Shown: in pieces, positions 10,187 to 13,697 of the stretch
Numbering within the stretch: position 1 is the first letter of the stretch
Layout of the letters: every line of letters starts with the position of its first letter
Source: Pseudohongiella sp. O18
GTDB taxonomy: Bacteria > Pseudomonadota > Gammaproteobacteria > Pseudomonadales > Pseudohongiellaceae
NCBI RefSeq assembly: GCF_021729085.1
Contig: NZ_JAJSAR010000002.1
Coordinates: 744,001-808,000 of the forward strand
Direction of reading: 5' to 3'
DNA: 64,000 nt
Position numbers and translations under genes: made by a program
The notes under the pieces: model-generated
What the model was told of the DNA's origin: nothing
The model's database searches: none
Seen by the model: only the letters and a program-made list of their open reading frames with translations

Positions 10187-11049
10187 TGGGACACTCGGAC
10201 ATTCCGCTGGGGAAACAGACCAGTTACCCGCAGCAATATGATCCTGCACAACTGTATCGTGTTGCACGAAGCGACAATCGCGCGCTTCTGCCGTTTGCTG
10301 CCGCCGGGACCGGTTCTGCCGATTTTGCAGACAAGGACCTGCCGTTCTTCGGCTTTGACCATTGGAGAGCCTATGAACTTTCCTGGCTGCAGCCTTCAGG
10401 TAAGCCCGTTGTGGCAACCGCAGACATCATCGTTCCCTGTGACTCGCCAAACCTGATTGAGTCCAAGTCAATGAAGTTGTACTTCAACTCATTGAACCAG
10501 CACAAACTGGATGGCATGCAGGAAGCGAGCGAGCTGATAGCTCGTGACCTCAGCCTGGCTGCCGGTAAGCCAGTTCAGGTGCGACTGCATCCCCTGACGG
10601 CGGGCGAGCATCACACGTCGATTGATACAAGCGCTGTTCTGTTGGATGAGCTGCAGATAGCGACCGAAGCCTTCTCACCTGATGCTGCTCTATTGGGCGT
10701 TCGGGAAGACAGCTCTGGCCCGGTTTCCGAAAGGCTGCGTTCGGAGCTGTTTCGATCCAACTGCCCGATTACCAGTCAACCTGACTGGGGCAGTGTTACG
10801 ATAGAGTACACCGGTCAGCCAATAAACCACGAGAGCCTTTTGCGCTACATTATTTCCTATAGGCAACATGAAGGCTTTCACGAACACTGTGTGGAAATGA
10901 TTTTCTGTGACCTGATGAAGATCTGCCGACCCCAGTCTTTGACCGTAAGCATCAATTTCCTCAGGCGTGGCGGCCTGGAAATCAATCCGCTGCGCACCAC
11001 ACGCGCCGGGCTTACCCCACAAAGCCTGCCGCGGGAACTACGCCAGTAA
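10186..11049 (+). CDS. queF: NADPH-dependent 7-cyano-7-deazaguanine reductase (QueF, long form)
   Basis: A 287-residue QueF of the two-domain YqcD type found in Gammaproteobacteria (E. coli 282). It reduces the nitrile preQ0 to the amine preQ1, the last soluble step before queuosine enters tRNA. Seen are the NADPH-binding signature ESKSMKLYFNSLNQ (about residues 97-110), the catalytic cysteine in SNCPITSQPDWGSV and the later HEGFHEHCVEMIF segment. The ATG at 10186 shares its A with the permease stop codon. No preQ1 riboswitch is evident, as expected for a coupled internal gene. Its neighbour tRNA-Ser is not a queuosine substrate. Confidence 0.96.
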   Translation: MGHSDIPLGKQTSYPQQYDPAQLYRVARSDNRALLPFAAAGTGSADFADKDLPFFGFDHWRAYELSWLQPSGKPVVATADIIVPCDSPNLIESKSMKLYFNSLNQHKLDGMQEASELIARDLSLAAGKPVQVRLHPLTAGEHHTSIDTSAVLLDELQIATEAFSPDAALLGVREDSSGPVSERLRSELFRSNCPITSQPDWGSVTIEYTGQPINHESLLRYIISYRQHEGFHEHCVEMIFCDLMKICRPQSLTVSINFLRRGGLEINPLRTTRAGLTPQSLPRELRQ

Positions 11050-11064
11050 TTCCTGCGGATTCGC

Positions 11065-11091
11065 TTGTATTTGCCACTGCCATGTTATAGA
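11065..11091 (+). promoter_or_regulatory. Weak candidate promoter of tRNA-Ser
   Basis: TTGTAT (11065-11070) and TATAGA (11086-11091) are separated by 15 nt and followed by the GC-rich GTTACGCGCC before the tRNA at 11109. The spacing is short. The tRNA may partly rely on read-through from queF, which ends 59 bp upstream. Confidence 0.35.
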
Positions 11092-11108
11092 GTTACGCGC
11101 CTTAAAAC

Positions 11109-11196
11109 GGTGAGGTGTCCGAGTGGTTGAAGGAGCACGCCTGGAAAGTGTGTATACGGAAACGTATCGAGGGTTCGAATCCCTCCCTCACCGCCA
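11109..11196 (+). tRNA. tRNA-Ser (anticodon GGA)
   Basis: An 88-nt type II tRNA with encoded CCA. Acceptor stem GGTGAGG pairs with CCTCACC (11186-11192), the anticodon loop is CTGGAAA, and a long variable arm (TATACG/CGTATC) is present. The T arm GAGGGTTCGAATCCCTC ends the molecule. Its last 19 nt (11178-11196) are the first element of the repeat array that follows. Confidence 0.97.
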
Positions 11197-11363
11197 TTTT
11201 AAGAATCCCCGCAGTAAACCTATCATAGCTGACCCCGAACAAAGCGCTGCCCTCGAGGAGGGATGAGAACCCGAAAAGAGGGTTCGACCGATTGCATCGC
11301 AATCGGAGACGAGCGCGTCAGCGCGAAGCCCAACGGGTCAAACAGCCCTAAGGCTGTTTGATC
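11178..11363 (+). repeat. tRNA-Ser-linked tandem repeat, unit 1 (186 bp)
   Basis: The unit starts with AATCCCTCCCTCACCGCCA, the authentic tRNA 3' end. It continues with a core to 11287 that is 91% identical to unit 2 (100 of 110 positions, no net indel). The core contains hairpin CCCTC/GAGGG (11250-11262), an ATG immediately after it, hairpin GAACCC/GGGTTC (11267-11285) and the tRNA T-arm start GAGGGTTCGA (11278-11287). A 76-nt insert then forms CCGATTGC/GCAATCGG (11288-11306), GCGC/GCGC (11313-11324), CCC/GGG (11329-11337) and TCAAACAGCC/GGCTGTTTGA (11338-11361). The next tRNA tail follows. Confidence 0.9.
11263..11361 (+). other. Minicistron in repeat unit 1 (32 codons)
   Basis: ATG at 11263 directly follows GAGGAGGG and reads MRTRKEGSTDCIAIGDER..., ending at TGA 11359-11361, two bases before the next tRNA tail. 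The purine-rich ribosome-like element is closer to the ATG than is usual. The first nine residues match unit 2 at all but one position; the rest do not. It may be a by-product of RNA hairpins. Compare the protamine-like tpr reading frame in the E. coli tyrT repeats. Confidence 0.3.
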
Positions 11364-11550
11364 AATCCCTCCCTCACCGCCAGTTTTAAAGTCCCCGCAG
11401 TAAAACGTCCATAGCTGACCCCGAACAAAGCGCTGCCCTCGAGGAGGGATGAGAACCCGACCAGAGGGTTCGACAAGCATCGCTTTGCGATGCGCAGCAC
11501 GTCACCGCCAGGTGACGCCCCGACGGGGTGAGCCGCGCAGCGGCGAATGA
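11364..11550 (+). repeat. tRNA-Ser-linked tandem repeat, unit 2 (187 bp)
   Basis: The same 19-nt tRNA tail (11364-11382) and 110-nt core are followed by a 77-nt insert (11474-11550) that shares almost no primary sequence with unit 1 but again folds into successive hairpins: GCATCGC/GCGATGC (11477-11493), CGTCACC/GGTGACG (11500-11517), CCCC/GGGG (11518-11528) and GCCGC/GCGGC (11532-11544). The insert begins right after GAGGGTTCGA (11464-11473), the point at which the tRNA-Ser T-loop would continue. Confidence 0.9.
11449..11550 (+). other. Minicistron in repeat unit 2 (33 codons)
   Basis: ATG at 11449 in the same position as in unit 1 opens MRTRPEGSTSIALRCAARH... and ends at TGA 11548-11550, abutting the third tRNA tail. 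The C-terminal half is arginine-rich (eight Arg in 33 residues), unlike the unit 1 peptide. Translation is unproven. Confidence 0.3.
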
Positions 11551-11622
11551 AATCCCTCCCTCACCGCCATTTTAAGAATCCCCGCAGTAAAACTTTCATA
11601 GCAGACCCCGAACAAAAGCGCT
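11551..11622 (+). repeat. tRNA-Ser-linked tandem repeat, unit 3 (truncated)
   Basis: A third exact 19-nt tRNA tail (11551-11569) is followed by core sequence matching unit 1 up to GCGCT at 11622. After this the sequence diverges: the CCCTC/GAGGG hairpin, the ATG and the insert are all missing. This marks the end of the array. Confidence 0.85.
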
Positions 11623-11681
11623 AGTGCCACGGTCCGACAACAAACCGATCAGGTGGTTAGATCCAGCCTCGCCACCGCCTG

Positions 11682-11709
11682 TTGCGCCCCAACAGCATTG
11701 GTGTACTAT
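11682..11709 (+). promoter_or_regulatory. Candidate promoter of the PQQ dehydrogenase pair
   Basis: TTGCGC (11682-11687) and TACTAT (11704-11709) are spaced by 16 nt and lie 41 bp upstream of the ATG at 11751. The stretch 11623-11750 contains no gene. Confidence 0.45.
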
Positions 11710-11750
11710 CCCTCTCGACCAACAAAATAAAAAAACAAAGAGAGATCACC

Positions 11751-13697
11751 ATGCAGCCATCCTGTTACCGCGGGCAAAGTGTACCTCCAGCTGACTCACC
11801 AAGAAAACGTAGCCTATTACTGGCCCACATCATCACGGCAGCATTTGTCACACTGTCTAGCGGCAGCCTGGCCAATGACTGGGCTCACTACGGCTCCGAT
11901 CAGGCATCCAGCAAATATGTGCCTTTTGATCAGATCAATGAAGATAATGTGAACCAACTGCAACTGGCGTGGAGTTGGGATTCACCCGACAATGCTACGG
12001 TCGCTGCCAACCATGAGGCCGGCAATTTTGCGGCCACTCCGAGCGCCTATAAATCGACGCCTATTGCCATAGACGGCGTGCTCTACATCAATTCTTCCTT
12101 CGGCCGGGTGGCGGCCATTGACGGGGAGAGTGGGGAAACGCTATGGACCTTTGATACCCGTGCCTGGGAAGCCGGTCGCCCGGCTAATCTTGGCTACAAC
12201 ACACGTGGTGTCAGCTACTGGACTGATGGTGATGCGCAACGCATCATTGTGCTGACCAATGATTCCTGGATGTGGTCCATCGATGCTGAAACGGGCTTGC
12301 CCGATCCCGCTTTTGGGGTTGATGGCAAAGTCGACCTGGCACAGGGACTGGGGCGTGAGATTAATCGTCGCGCCTACTCTATGGTCAGCACCGCGTTAAT
12401 TCATGGCGATCTGGCAGTTGTTGGCTCAGTGATAAACGACGTGCCGACTTATCAACTCGCGCCACCCGGCCATGTACGGGCTTTTGACGTCCGCACTGGC
12501 GAGCAGCGCTGGATATTCAGAACCATCCCACAGCCCGGCGAGTTCGGCAATGAAACCTGGGAAAACGGTGCCTGGCAGACAGTGGGTAACACTAATGTCT
12601 GGACACAGATGAGCTCGGATCCCGAGCTTGACCTGATCTATCTGCCAACTGGCACGCCGACCAACGACTGGTATGGCGGTCACAGACTGGGCAGTAATCT
12701 GTTTGCCGAAACAATAATTGCTGTCGATGCTCAGACGGGGGCAAGACGATGGCATTTTCAGACAGTGCATCACGGACTCTGGGACTATGACTTGCCCGCC
12801 GCCCCGAACCTTATGGATATTACGGTCGACGGAGAGCCCGTAAAGGCGCTTGCGCAGATTTCCAAACAGGGGTTTGTTTATGTCCTGAACCGTGAGACCG
12901 GTGAGCCCATCTGGCCAATAGAAGAACGTTCGGTACCGGCCTCAACCGTCCCCGGTGAGCGTGCTTCACCAACGCAGCCGCATCCCACACGTCCCGCCCC
13001 GTTCGAGCCTCAGGGTATATCAGATGCCACATTGATTGACTTCACTCCCGAGCTGCGCGCTCAGGCAGAAGAGGCGCTCGCGCCATTTGATTATGGCCCG
13101 CTGTTTACACCCCCATCATTGCGGGGCACGGTGTTGTTGCCAGGCTGGACCGGAGGTGGTGGCTGGCAGGGAGCTGCAGCTGACCCAGAAACCGGCATGC
13201 TGTATATCCCTTCGGGCAGTGCTCCAATTGTCGCGCAACTGGTAGAACCTGAGGCTGGCAGCTCTGACTTCCGTTATGTCCGGGGTGGCATCACATCCGT
13301 GTCAGGTCCACAGGGTCTGCCGTTGACCAAACCGCCTTACGGACGAATTACCGCCATTGATATGAACAGTGGCGAACACGCCTGGGTCGTCCCACATGGC
13401 GAAGGCATTCGTCAACGTATCATTGATCTTGGTCTGGCAGACCCGGGACCGGTCGGTTCAACCTCCAGAACCGGACCGGTATTGACCAAAACCCTGTTGT
13501 TTGTGGCCCAGCAGGACGGTGGACGTGCTGTGATGCGGGCGTTCGACAAATCAACCGGTGAGGTTGTTCACGAGTTGGACCTGCCATCGTCGCCGGCCGC
13601 GACGCCCATGAGTTACATGGTGGGGGATAAACAATATATCGCCATCGCCCTGGGCGGTGGTACGGACGCAAGAGTTGTCAGTTATGCATTACCTTGA
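11751..13697 (+). CDS. Secreted PQQ-dependent dehydrogenase, glucose-dehydrogenase-like (copy 1)
   Basis: A 648-residue eight-bladed propeller quinoprotein. The ATG at 11751 precedes a signal peptide (RKRSLLLAHIITAAFVTLSSGSLA, about residues 16-38), so the enzyme is periplasmic. Family marks are SSKYVPFDQINEDNV, the tryptophan motif LWTFDTRAWEAGR, TNDWYGGHRLGSNL, the mGDH-like FQTVHHGLWDYDLPAAPNL and a lysine in ISKQGFVYVLNRETGEPIWP that aligns with the PQQ-contacting lysine of E. coli Gcd. Unlike Gcd there is no N-terminal membrane domain, and there is no cytochrome c domain, so an electron acceptor must be supplied separately. Sugar or alcohol substrate is not predictable. No pqq biosynthesis genes lie in the window. 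Confidence 0.88.
   Translation: MQPSCYRGQSVPPADSPRKRSLLLAHIITAAFVTLSSGSLANDWAHYGSDQASSKYVPFDQINEDNVNQLQLAWSWDSPDNATVAANHEAGNFAATPSAYKSTPIAIDGVLYINSSFGRVAAIDGESGETLWTFDTRAWEAGRPANLGYNTRGVSYWTDGDAQRIIVLTNDSWMWSIDAETGLPDPAFGVDGKVDLAQGLGREINRRAYSMVSTALIHGDLAVVGSVINDVPTYQLAPPGHVRAFDVRTGEQRWIFRTIPQPGEFGNETWENGAWQTVGNTNVWTQMSSDPELDLIYLPTGTPTNDWYGGHRLGSNLFAETIIAVDAQTGARRWHFQTVHHGLWDYDLPAAPNLMDITVDGEPVKALAQISKQGFVYVLNRETGEPIWPIEERSVPASTVPGERASPTQPHPTRPAPFEPQGISDATLIDFTPELRAQAEEALAPFDYGPLFTPPSLRGTVLLPGWTGGGGWQGAAADPETGMLYIPSGSAPIVAQLVEPEAGSSDFRYVRGGITSVSGPQGLPLTKPPYGRITAIDMNSGEHAWVVPHGEGIRQRIIDLGLADPGPVGSTSRTGPVLTKTLLFVAQQDGGRAVMRAFDKSTGEVVHELDLPSSPAATPMSYMVGDKQYIAIALGGGTDARVVSYALP

Follow-up and report, generated by a model that had tools for sequence, protein, structure and literature searches.

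The rtT repeat is known from the tyrT operon of E. coli, and its role there is uncertain. The tyrT/tyrV locus of E. coli K-12 carries four repeats that score 132.9-137.5 bits against the Rfam RtT model, RF00391, and rttR is annotated as an sRNA whose annotated end falls exactly at the CCA of the tail. The accessible part of one study (PMC4986893) likewise points to uncertainty about the role of RtT and gives Northern bands for Arrc20 and Arrc21, RtT-family RNAs of Actinobacillus pleuropneumoniae. Here we describe an RtT-like array behind a different tRNA in Pseudohongiella sp. O18 and place it in a wider set of related elements.

Results

Architecture of the Array. In the 64,000-nucleotide stretch of DNA that we have analysed (the window) ARAGORN calls a tRNA-Ser(GGA) gene whose last 19 nt, AATCCCTCCCTCACCGCCA, are found at 11178, 11364 and 11551, giving array periods of 186 and 187 bp. 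Repeat detection returns a 111-nt family at the same three positions, with the later copies 91% and 66% like the first, and the exact recurrence of the tail reported in a preliminary description of this locus is thus confirmed both from the sequence and by repeat detection. There are two full units and a partial third copy that consists of a tail and 53 nt of spacer (Table 1). Each unit runs in the order spacer, inverted arm, short loop, T-stem copy (GGTTCGA), insert of ~76 nt and 19-nt tail. When units 1 and 2 are aligned without their tails 83 of 92 positions (90%) are the same in spacer and arms, and only 48 of 83 (58%) in the inserts. The inverted T-arm/acceptor copies, the differing inserts and the sister elements behind three more tRNAs (see below) all go beyond what had been noted initially.

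Table 1. Features of the tRNA-Ser(GGA) locus and its tandem array, in window coordinates
Feature	Position	Strand	Basis or remark
Host gene, tRNA-Ser(GGA)	11109..11196	+	ARAGORN; last 19 nt (11178-11196) match the tail copies
Unit 1 spacer (trailer)	11197..11254	+	sequence, unit alignment
Unit 1 inverted arm, GAGGAGGGATGAGAACCC	11255..11272	+	near-reverse complement of host T-arm/acceptor 3' strand
Unit 1 direct T-stem copy, GAGGGTTCGA	11278..11287	+	left border of the insert
Unit 1 insert, type A	11288..11363	+	hairpins P3, P4, P5, P6
Tail copy 2	11364..11382	+	exact last 19 nt of tRNA
Unit 2 spacer	11383..11440	+	together with arms 90% like unit 1
Unit 2 inverted arm	11441..11458	+	sequence, fold
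Unit 2 direct T-stem copy, GAGGGTTCGA	11464..11473	+	sequence
Unit 2 insert, type B (RtT-like)	11474..11550	+	85% to insert behind tRNA-Ser(GCT) of G014; 58% to unit 1 insert
Tail copy 3	11551..11569	+	exact
Partial third spacer (53 nt)	11570..11622	+	92% identical to spacer 1; array end

The array is absent from the output of TRF for the window and is missed by Rfam at curated thresholds, which reports only three tRNAs and the SRP RNA there. No coding capacity was seen in the 186-bp units, and there is no room between the repeats for an integrase gene or mobile cargo. Two minus-strand open frames, at 11102-11302 and 11223-11480 (66 and 85 aa), lie over the tRNA and the units; one of them contains VREGFEPS, and both look like spurious ORFs antisense to the tRNA.

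Relation to RtT. When RF00391 is run in permissive mode the region 11428-11569, that is unit 2, matches over the full length of the model with 43.9 bits (E 2.2e-7), while unit 1 scores 22.8 bits; because both values lie below the curated cut-off of 45 bits we call the array RtT-like and do not file it as a member of the family. Its parts follow the same order as in the four E. coli K-12 repeats, with inverted arm, GGTTCGA, insert and tail in succession. Like rtT, it lies on the 3' side of a tRNA gene whose last 19 nt it repeats; the linkage to a tyrT operon is not found, the host here being tRNA-Ser(GGA). The full-length match, short of the cut-off as it is, and the common order of parts bear out the initial suggestion that the array and E. 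coli rtT are elements of one kind, on different tRNAs and in different lineages.

Spread over Genomes and tRNAs. A BLAST search of the unit against its own genome gives relatives at three more places (E 3.3e-6 or better), behind tRNA-Ser(GCT) (L048), tRNA-Phe(GAA) (L049) and tRNA-Ser(TGA) (L050), and by eye the arms at each follow the neighbouring tRNA. A smaller tandem array is also present in L048, at ~1127-1255 behind the tRNA-Ser(GCT) element, with four copies 36 nt apart and a unit that holds the T-loop/tail piece AATCCCTCTCTC.

Among the genomes of relatives 23 of 56 match the unit at E <=0.001 (7 of 29 genera). Matches to RF00391 at E <=0.01 are found in 81 of 369 Gammaproteobacteria genomes and 69 of 272 genera, 23 being over the cut-off, with only E. 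coli positive among 14 control genomes. Across Pseudomonadota 47 of 398 genomes match at E <=0.001, and these matches are confined to Gammaproteobacteria or to one family (f226) of another class. That family has many RtT-model matches (L307-L319), and most of the 13 stretches read sit behind tRNA-Ser or tRNA-Gln and have a tail copy.

From the RF00391 matches listed we took 127 places, most tandem neighbours having been merged, and 100 of these have a tRNA within 400 nt upstream. The host tRNAs cover 15 anticodons: Gln (TTG 20, CTG 13), Ser (GGA 17, GCT 15, CGA 8, TGA 8), Tyr (9), Arg (6, five kinds), Glu (2), Val (1) and Pro (1); Phe, Leu and Lys hosts were found outside the 127-place set. 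At 93 of the 127 listed places the tRNA ends <100 nt upstream of the match, and these form the set used for the arm, loop and terminator tests below; the other 34 comprise 7 at contig edges, 20 without a tRNA within 400 nt and 7 with one at 100-400 nt upstream. The preliminary description had proposed that tRNA-tail repeats are general, a notion that would fall if no other genome had such repeats beside its tRNAs. The 81 genomes with matches and the 15 anticodons among the listed places sustain that proposal.

The type-A core, defined by a pattern free of tRNA sequence, occurs in 70 stretches of named genomes, from genera that include Pseudohongiella, Microbulbifer, Alloalcanivorax, Alteromonas and Teredinibacter. 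There are 87 type-A cores, of which 43 begin 97-117 nt downstream of a tRNA and another 13 are found within 500 nt, most of these 13 being further units of an array; the tRNAs before these 56 are always Phe, Ser or one Leu. Of the rest, one core is separated from a tRNA by 5.4 kb, and no tRNA precedes the other 30 in their stretches. Twenty-four of these 31 were read by eye, and ~18 have an upstream 3' fragment of tRNA-Phe or tRNA-Ser that seems to be left over from island integration. At one locus, L326 of genome G569, short RtT-like units alternate with whole tRNA genes in tRNA-Lys/tRNA-Val arrays, as if the units had taken part in the duplication of the tRNA genes.

Carriage by viruses or plasmids was considered and rejected, the exact core pattern having 0 matches in viral_contigs and one type-A element 0 matches against plasmids. 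The E. coli RtT query against phages hits one record, a 515-kb Salmonella record filed under phages.

Host-Matched Arms. At the 93 listed places the 330 nt that follow the tRNA were scored for its last 19 nt: the own tail reaches a mean of 17.3 of 19, as compared to 7.0 for other isotypes, and is above all other isotypes at 87 places and tied at 4. A copy of the own tail with at most 2 mismatches (median offset 153 nt) is present at 78 of the 93 places and one of a randomly drawn other isotype's tail at 0 of 93, so that recurrence of the tail is not a matter of chance. The inverted arm follows the host as well, with a mean score of 13.0 for the own arm versus 8.4 for other isotypes; the own arm is above all others at 64 places, tied at 15 and below that of another isotype at 14. 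L101 is an instructive exception, with a tRNA-Phe-type trailer and element behind tRNA-Leu(CAG); both tRNAs end in CTGGGCACCA. We have found no description of tRNA-matched arms or of insert exchange in the open-licence literature, so an earlier account elsewhere is possible.

Insert Exchange and Turnover. Comparison of unit 2 with the unit behind tRNA-Ser(GCT) of G014, a genome of the same genus, gives identities of 56/103 (54%) in spacer and arms and 66/78 (85%) in the insert; this insert was found in 2 of the 56 genomes searched, its own and G014. Such alignments indicate that arms stay with the locus and that inserts are exchanged between loci. In L085, L114 and L144 inserts seem, by eye, to be placed serially within one frame.

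The element also comes and goes within the genus. Among 15 genomes the tRNA-Ser(GGA) site holds the element in six (decayed in G011, partly N in G008), is empty in five (G001, G002, G004, G009 and G010) and has an integrase-like frame in place of the element in two (G003 and G012); it is not visible in G005, where the tRNA is at the contig start, or in G006. The next gene at four of these five empty sites resembles the dehydrogenase found after the array in the window, and that of G009 is similar-looking. Of the 14 genomes of the genus in which the tRNA-Ser(GCT) site was read, eight have the element there; in the other six the site is empty or different. In G012 this site, which holds the element elsewhere, has a different short repeat, GGCTCTACCCCATTAACGGGGGATAGCACTCATTAAACC, in about two copies (L276).

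Folding, Loops and Mismatches. Unit 1 is predicted to fold as RNA with -69.3 kcal/mol (z -4.07) into a multi-branched structure that is closed by pairing of the inverted arm with the tail, and unit 2 gives a z of -3.73. Both strands also fold when treated as DNA (z -5.07 and -5.61), and the minus strand taken as RNA has a z of -3.89; since both strands fold, the fold alone cannot name RNA or DNA as the active form. In an alignment of 21 related elements 19 of 37 pairs have changes on both sides, a covariation that fits selection on RNA and palindromes equally well.

Loops of the cGNAg type are stable in DNA, and aptamer papers reportedly contain the GCGAAGC hairpin. Counting hairpins with stem >=5 and loop 3-4 in the RtT-model elements of the 93-place listed set, we find cGNAg triloops in 67 of 187 on the tRNA-sense strand and in none on the opposite strand; the controls are 34 of 1210 hairpins in 445 kb of flanks (both strands) and 4 of 197 for the remainder of the window. 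With stems >=4, GNA triloops are found in 129 of 308 hairpins of RtT-model elements (GNRA 20, UNCG 2), as against 28 of 237 in type A and 28 of 296 in upstream controls. Type A often has cGNNAg loops, with GCCA 18, GTCA 13 and GACA 5 among 68 P4 loops, and unit 1 of the window belongs to this class with its weak loop signal. We have therefore not retained cGNAg loops as a general DNA signature, which holds in RtT-model elements and hardly in type A.

Mismatches in P3 and P6, counted over 51/52 unique P3 and 52/57 unique P6 stretches, comprise GT 7 and AC 10; tRNA stems, for comparison, have GT 65 and AC 0. At 84 of the 93 listed places P1 has GT 32 and AC 35, and hairpins with one mismatch GT 10 and AC 2 (P=0.04). 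The outcome of G.U wobble as a test of strand is mixed, and it was dropped as proof.

Terminators. An apparent terminator stands between the CCA and the element at all 30 of 30 type-A tRNA-Phe places and at 40 of the 93 listed RtT-model places, as compared with 33 of 1860 shuffles, a control that applies to detection at the RtT-model places and not to the type-A detector. Elsewhere in type A the counts are Ser(GGA) 1/4, Ser(TGA) 0/7, Ser(GCT) 0/2 and Leu 1/1. The listed RtT-model places differ by tRNA, with Gln CTG 12/13, Gln TTG 0/19 and Tyr 0/9, and 53 of the 93 have no terminator in front. The search of 11000-11800 of the window gave no terminator-like site, and transcription of the array is for this reason possible. 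Taken together, the apparent terminators point to DNA, the loops do so for part of the family and the mismatch types are mixed.

Discussion

A Proposed DNA Element of tRNA 3' Flanks. The reading that we favour, tentatively and with a little less than an even chance of being right, is that of a DNA element which recombines in the 3' flanks of tRNA genes and for which any RNA is a secondary product. The element would be a non-coding unit of ~186 bp that acts first as DNA. Its 19-nt tails would allow units to be duplicated in tandem or lost by recombination, and loss between tails would restore a clean tRNA gene, so that little harm would come to the host tRNA. Recombination within the T-arm frame may swap inserts, and because most tRNAs have its borders, GGTTCGA and AATCC, in common, an insert could move to the locus of another tRNA and leave the arms behind. 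Units without an intervening terminator are probably transcribed together with the tRNA and trimmed, as in E. coli, to an RNA ending in CCA, which would be a by-product or a secondary use. The recombination route, the priority of DNA and the status of the RNA are what we infer; the anatomy, the host-matched arms, the range of tRNAs, the exchange of inserts, presence and absence in the genus and apparent terminators before many copies are observed.

Arguing for the recombining DNA element are the own tails and inverted arms, the exchange of inserts, the occupied and empty sites, the terminators and the four tRNAs with elements in one genome, to which can be added the Phe-type element behind tRNA-Leu(CAG) in L101 and the strand bias of cGNAg loops in RtT-model elements. 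Against it stand the sRNA annotation of rttR, the Actinobacillus Northerns in the accessible text of PMC4986893, the covariation, the weak loop signal of type A, the mixed wobble test, the 53 of 93 places without a terminator and the 14 of 93 at which the arm of another isotype fits better. No recombinase or transposase tied to the element was found in the genus, Y1_Tnp being present in 15 of 15 genomes whether or not the site is occupied. A RAYT/Y1 transposase is not favoured as mover, no link between Y1_Tnp and occupancy being visible in these 15 genomes.

A Possible Regulatory or Decoy RNA. A less likely competitor is a structured, CCA-ended RNA of ~170-187 nt that would be cut from the tRNA precursor and act in trans (in the stringent response, as has been proposed for rtT) or, as a decoy of the kind suggested in the preliminary description, titrate tRNA-processing enzymes, with arms that match the tRNA because fold and processing need them. 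The rttR annotation and the Northern bands of Actinobacillus (PMC4986893, in the part available) establish that RNA is made in some hosts. The strong folds of both units, the position of the annotated rttR end at the tail CCA, the orientation of the element, which is that of the tRNA, the window array with no terminator-like site and the lack of a cGNAg excess in type A are all in keeping with such an RNA. As a general purpose it is hard to reconcile with an apparent terminator at every type-A tRNA-Phe place and at 40 of the 93 listed RtT-model places, with the tRNA-Ser(GGA) site being empty in several species of the genus, or with inserts that swap between loci. The RtT-model hairpins, moreover, are rich in GNA and poor in GNRA and UNCG loops, and the other strand folds about equally well.

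A Possible Mobile Element with Borrowed Termini. Less probable still, in our judgment, is a mobile DNA element of a categorically distinct sort, with terminal inverted repeats borrowed from the host tRNA. By sequence both 3' ends of the insert frame appear to resemble a T-loop (GGTTC..ATC on one strand, ..AATCC on the other), which would allow a single-stranded, hairpin-folded molecule to base-pair with the T-loop of nearly every tRNA gene. Replication would then extend the annealed form, copying tRNA tail and trailer onto both ends, direct and inverted. If true, this route would explain in one step the host-matched arms and the palindrome through the terminator, and also why the array ends in a partial spacer and why 15 or more anticodons are reached.

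Possible Errors of Replication. The arms might alternatively be a by-product of replication, in which fold-back and template switching, at the T-arm palindrome and trailer hairpin, produce copies of the tRNA 3' end in both orientations that then drift without selection; we hold this to be improbable. At some tRNA-Phe and Arg loci (L129, L095 and L290, read by eye) the inverted arm does run through the anti-CCA into the trailer, forming one long palindrome centred on the terminator loop. Over 33 loosely filtered tRNAs the inverted match averages 9.5, versus 5.5 in shuffles, and beats all 20 shuffles at 20 of 33, but the other 13 fail to beat theirs. The kinship of the inserts, furthermore, can be recognised from one tRNA and genus to another, and at many loci the shared motif GGATGAGAACC shows the same departure from a perfect reverse complement, GGATTCGAACC, for which reason the copies seem to share descent.

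Integrases and Islands. The region from T-loop to CCA of a tRNA gene is a usual attachment region for integrases, and islands seem to use the tRNAs concerned here. A satellite or scar of tRNA-targeting integrases, with the tails as attachment-site duplications, would account for tails that span T-loop to CCA, for the frame in G003 and G012 that reads by eye like a tyrosine integrase right after tRNA-Ser(GGA), with an element 13-14 kb further on (L026, L030), and for the tRNA 3' fragments before elements that lack a tRNA, but it is very improbable given units in which no coding capacity was seen, 0 exact core matches in viral_contigs, no plasmid match for one type-A element and 15 anticodons that a single integrase could hardly serve.

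In L026 and L030 the element carries the 3' part of a tRNA-Ser, and the stretches are apparent islands. Decoy attachment sites that shield the tRNA were also considered and are not favoured, the integrase-like frame of G003 and G012 lying directly behind the tRNA with an element 13-14 kb on. In six stretches (L084, L096, L099, L103, L124 and L146) a tRNA-Phe 3' fragment is fused to an insert at GGTTCGA, and most of these fusions adjoin repeated AGCACACT motifs. They are apparently the result of recombination of island ends with the T-stem copy of the element; they speak against rejecting decoy sites, and could reflect either integration or later recombination.

Implications. The evidence supports the rtT-type repeat as a widespread kind of sequence in tRNA 3' flanks, far beyond one lineage. 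To what was known are added a host-matched inverted arm, a modular insert, turnover within a genus and many copies behind apparent terminators. What was an E. coli curiosity now looks like a widespread genetic element that usually carries the tail of its own tRNA, and it raises questions that can be tested: whether it is the RNA or the DNA that is selected, where the tRNA-matching arms come from and whether the tails drive tRNA-gene duplication and island integration.

Comparison with Known Systems. With the attachment duplications of prophages and islands at tRNA genes the array shares a direct repeat of the tRNA 3' end; the window array, in contrast, has no cargo between the repeats and has an inverted arm, tandem units and related inserts. 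REP/BIME sequences with their Y1 (RAYT) transposases are likewise short, palindromic, non-coding repeats, whereas the window element is tied to tRNA tails, and the presence of Y1_Tnp, seen in all 15 genus genomes, does not track occupancy. The available portions of two papers connect REPs and rtT, one placing rttR among sRNAs with predicted REPs (PMC12306157), the other describing BIME attenuators that resemble rtT (PMC2965389). Arrc20 and Arrc21 are RtT-family RNAs by non-Tyr tRNA genes (Asn, Lys) and are in this respect similar, but in the accessible text of PMC4986893 they are treated as trans-acting sRNAs and lie upstream of the tRNAs, and host-matched arms and insert exchange go unmentioned there.

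The closest relative is rtT itself (tyrT/tyrV, RttR, RF00391). The window array differs in its tRNA-Ser(GGA) host, in having both units below 45 bits and in the other insert type of unit 1, which places two insert types in one array; an RNA is annotated in E. coli, and for the window array transcription is possible. Common to the two are tandem repeats of about 180 bp that carry the last 19 nt of the host tRNA, an inverted arm with GGATGAGAA, the GGTTCGA motif, a hairpin insert with CCCGAAGGG and a tail that ends in CCA.
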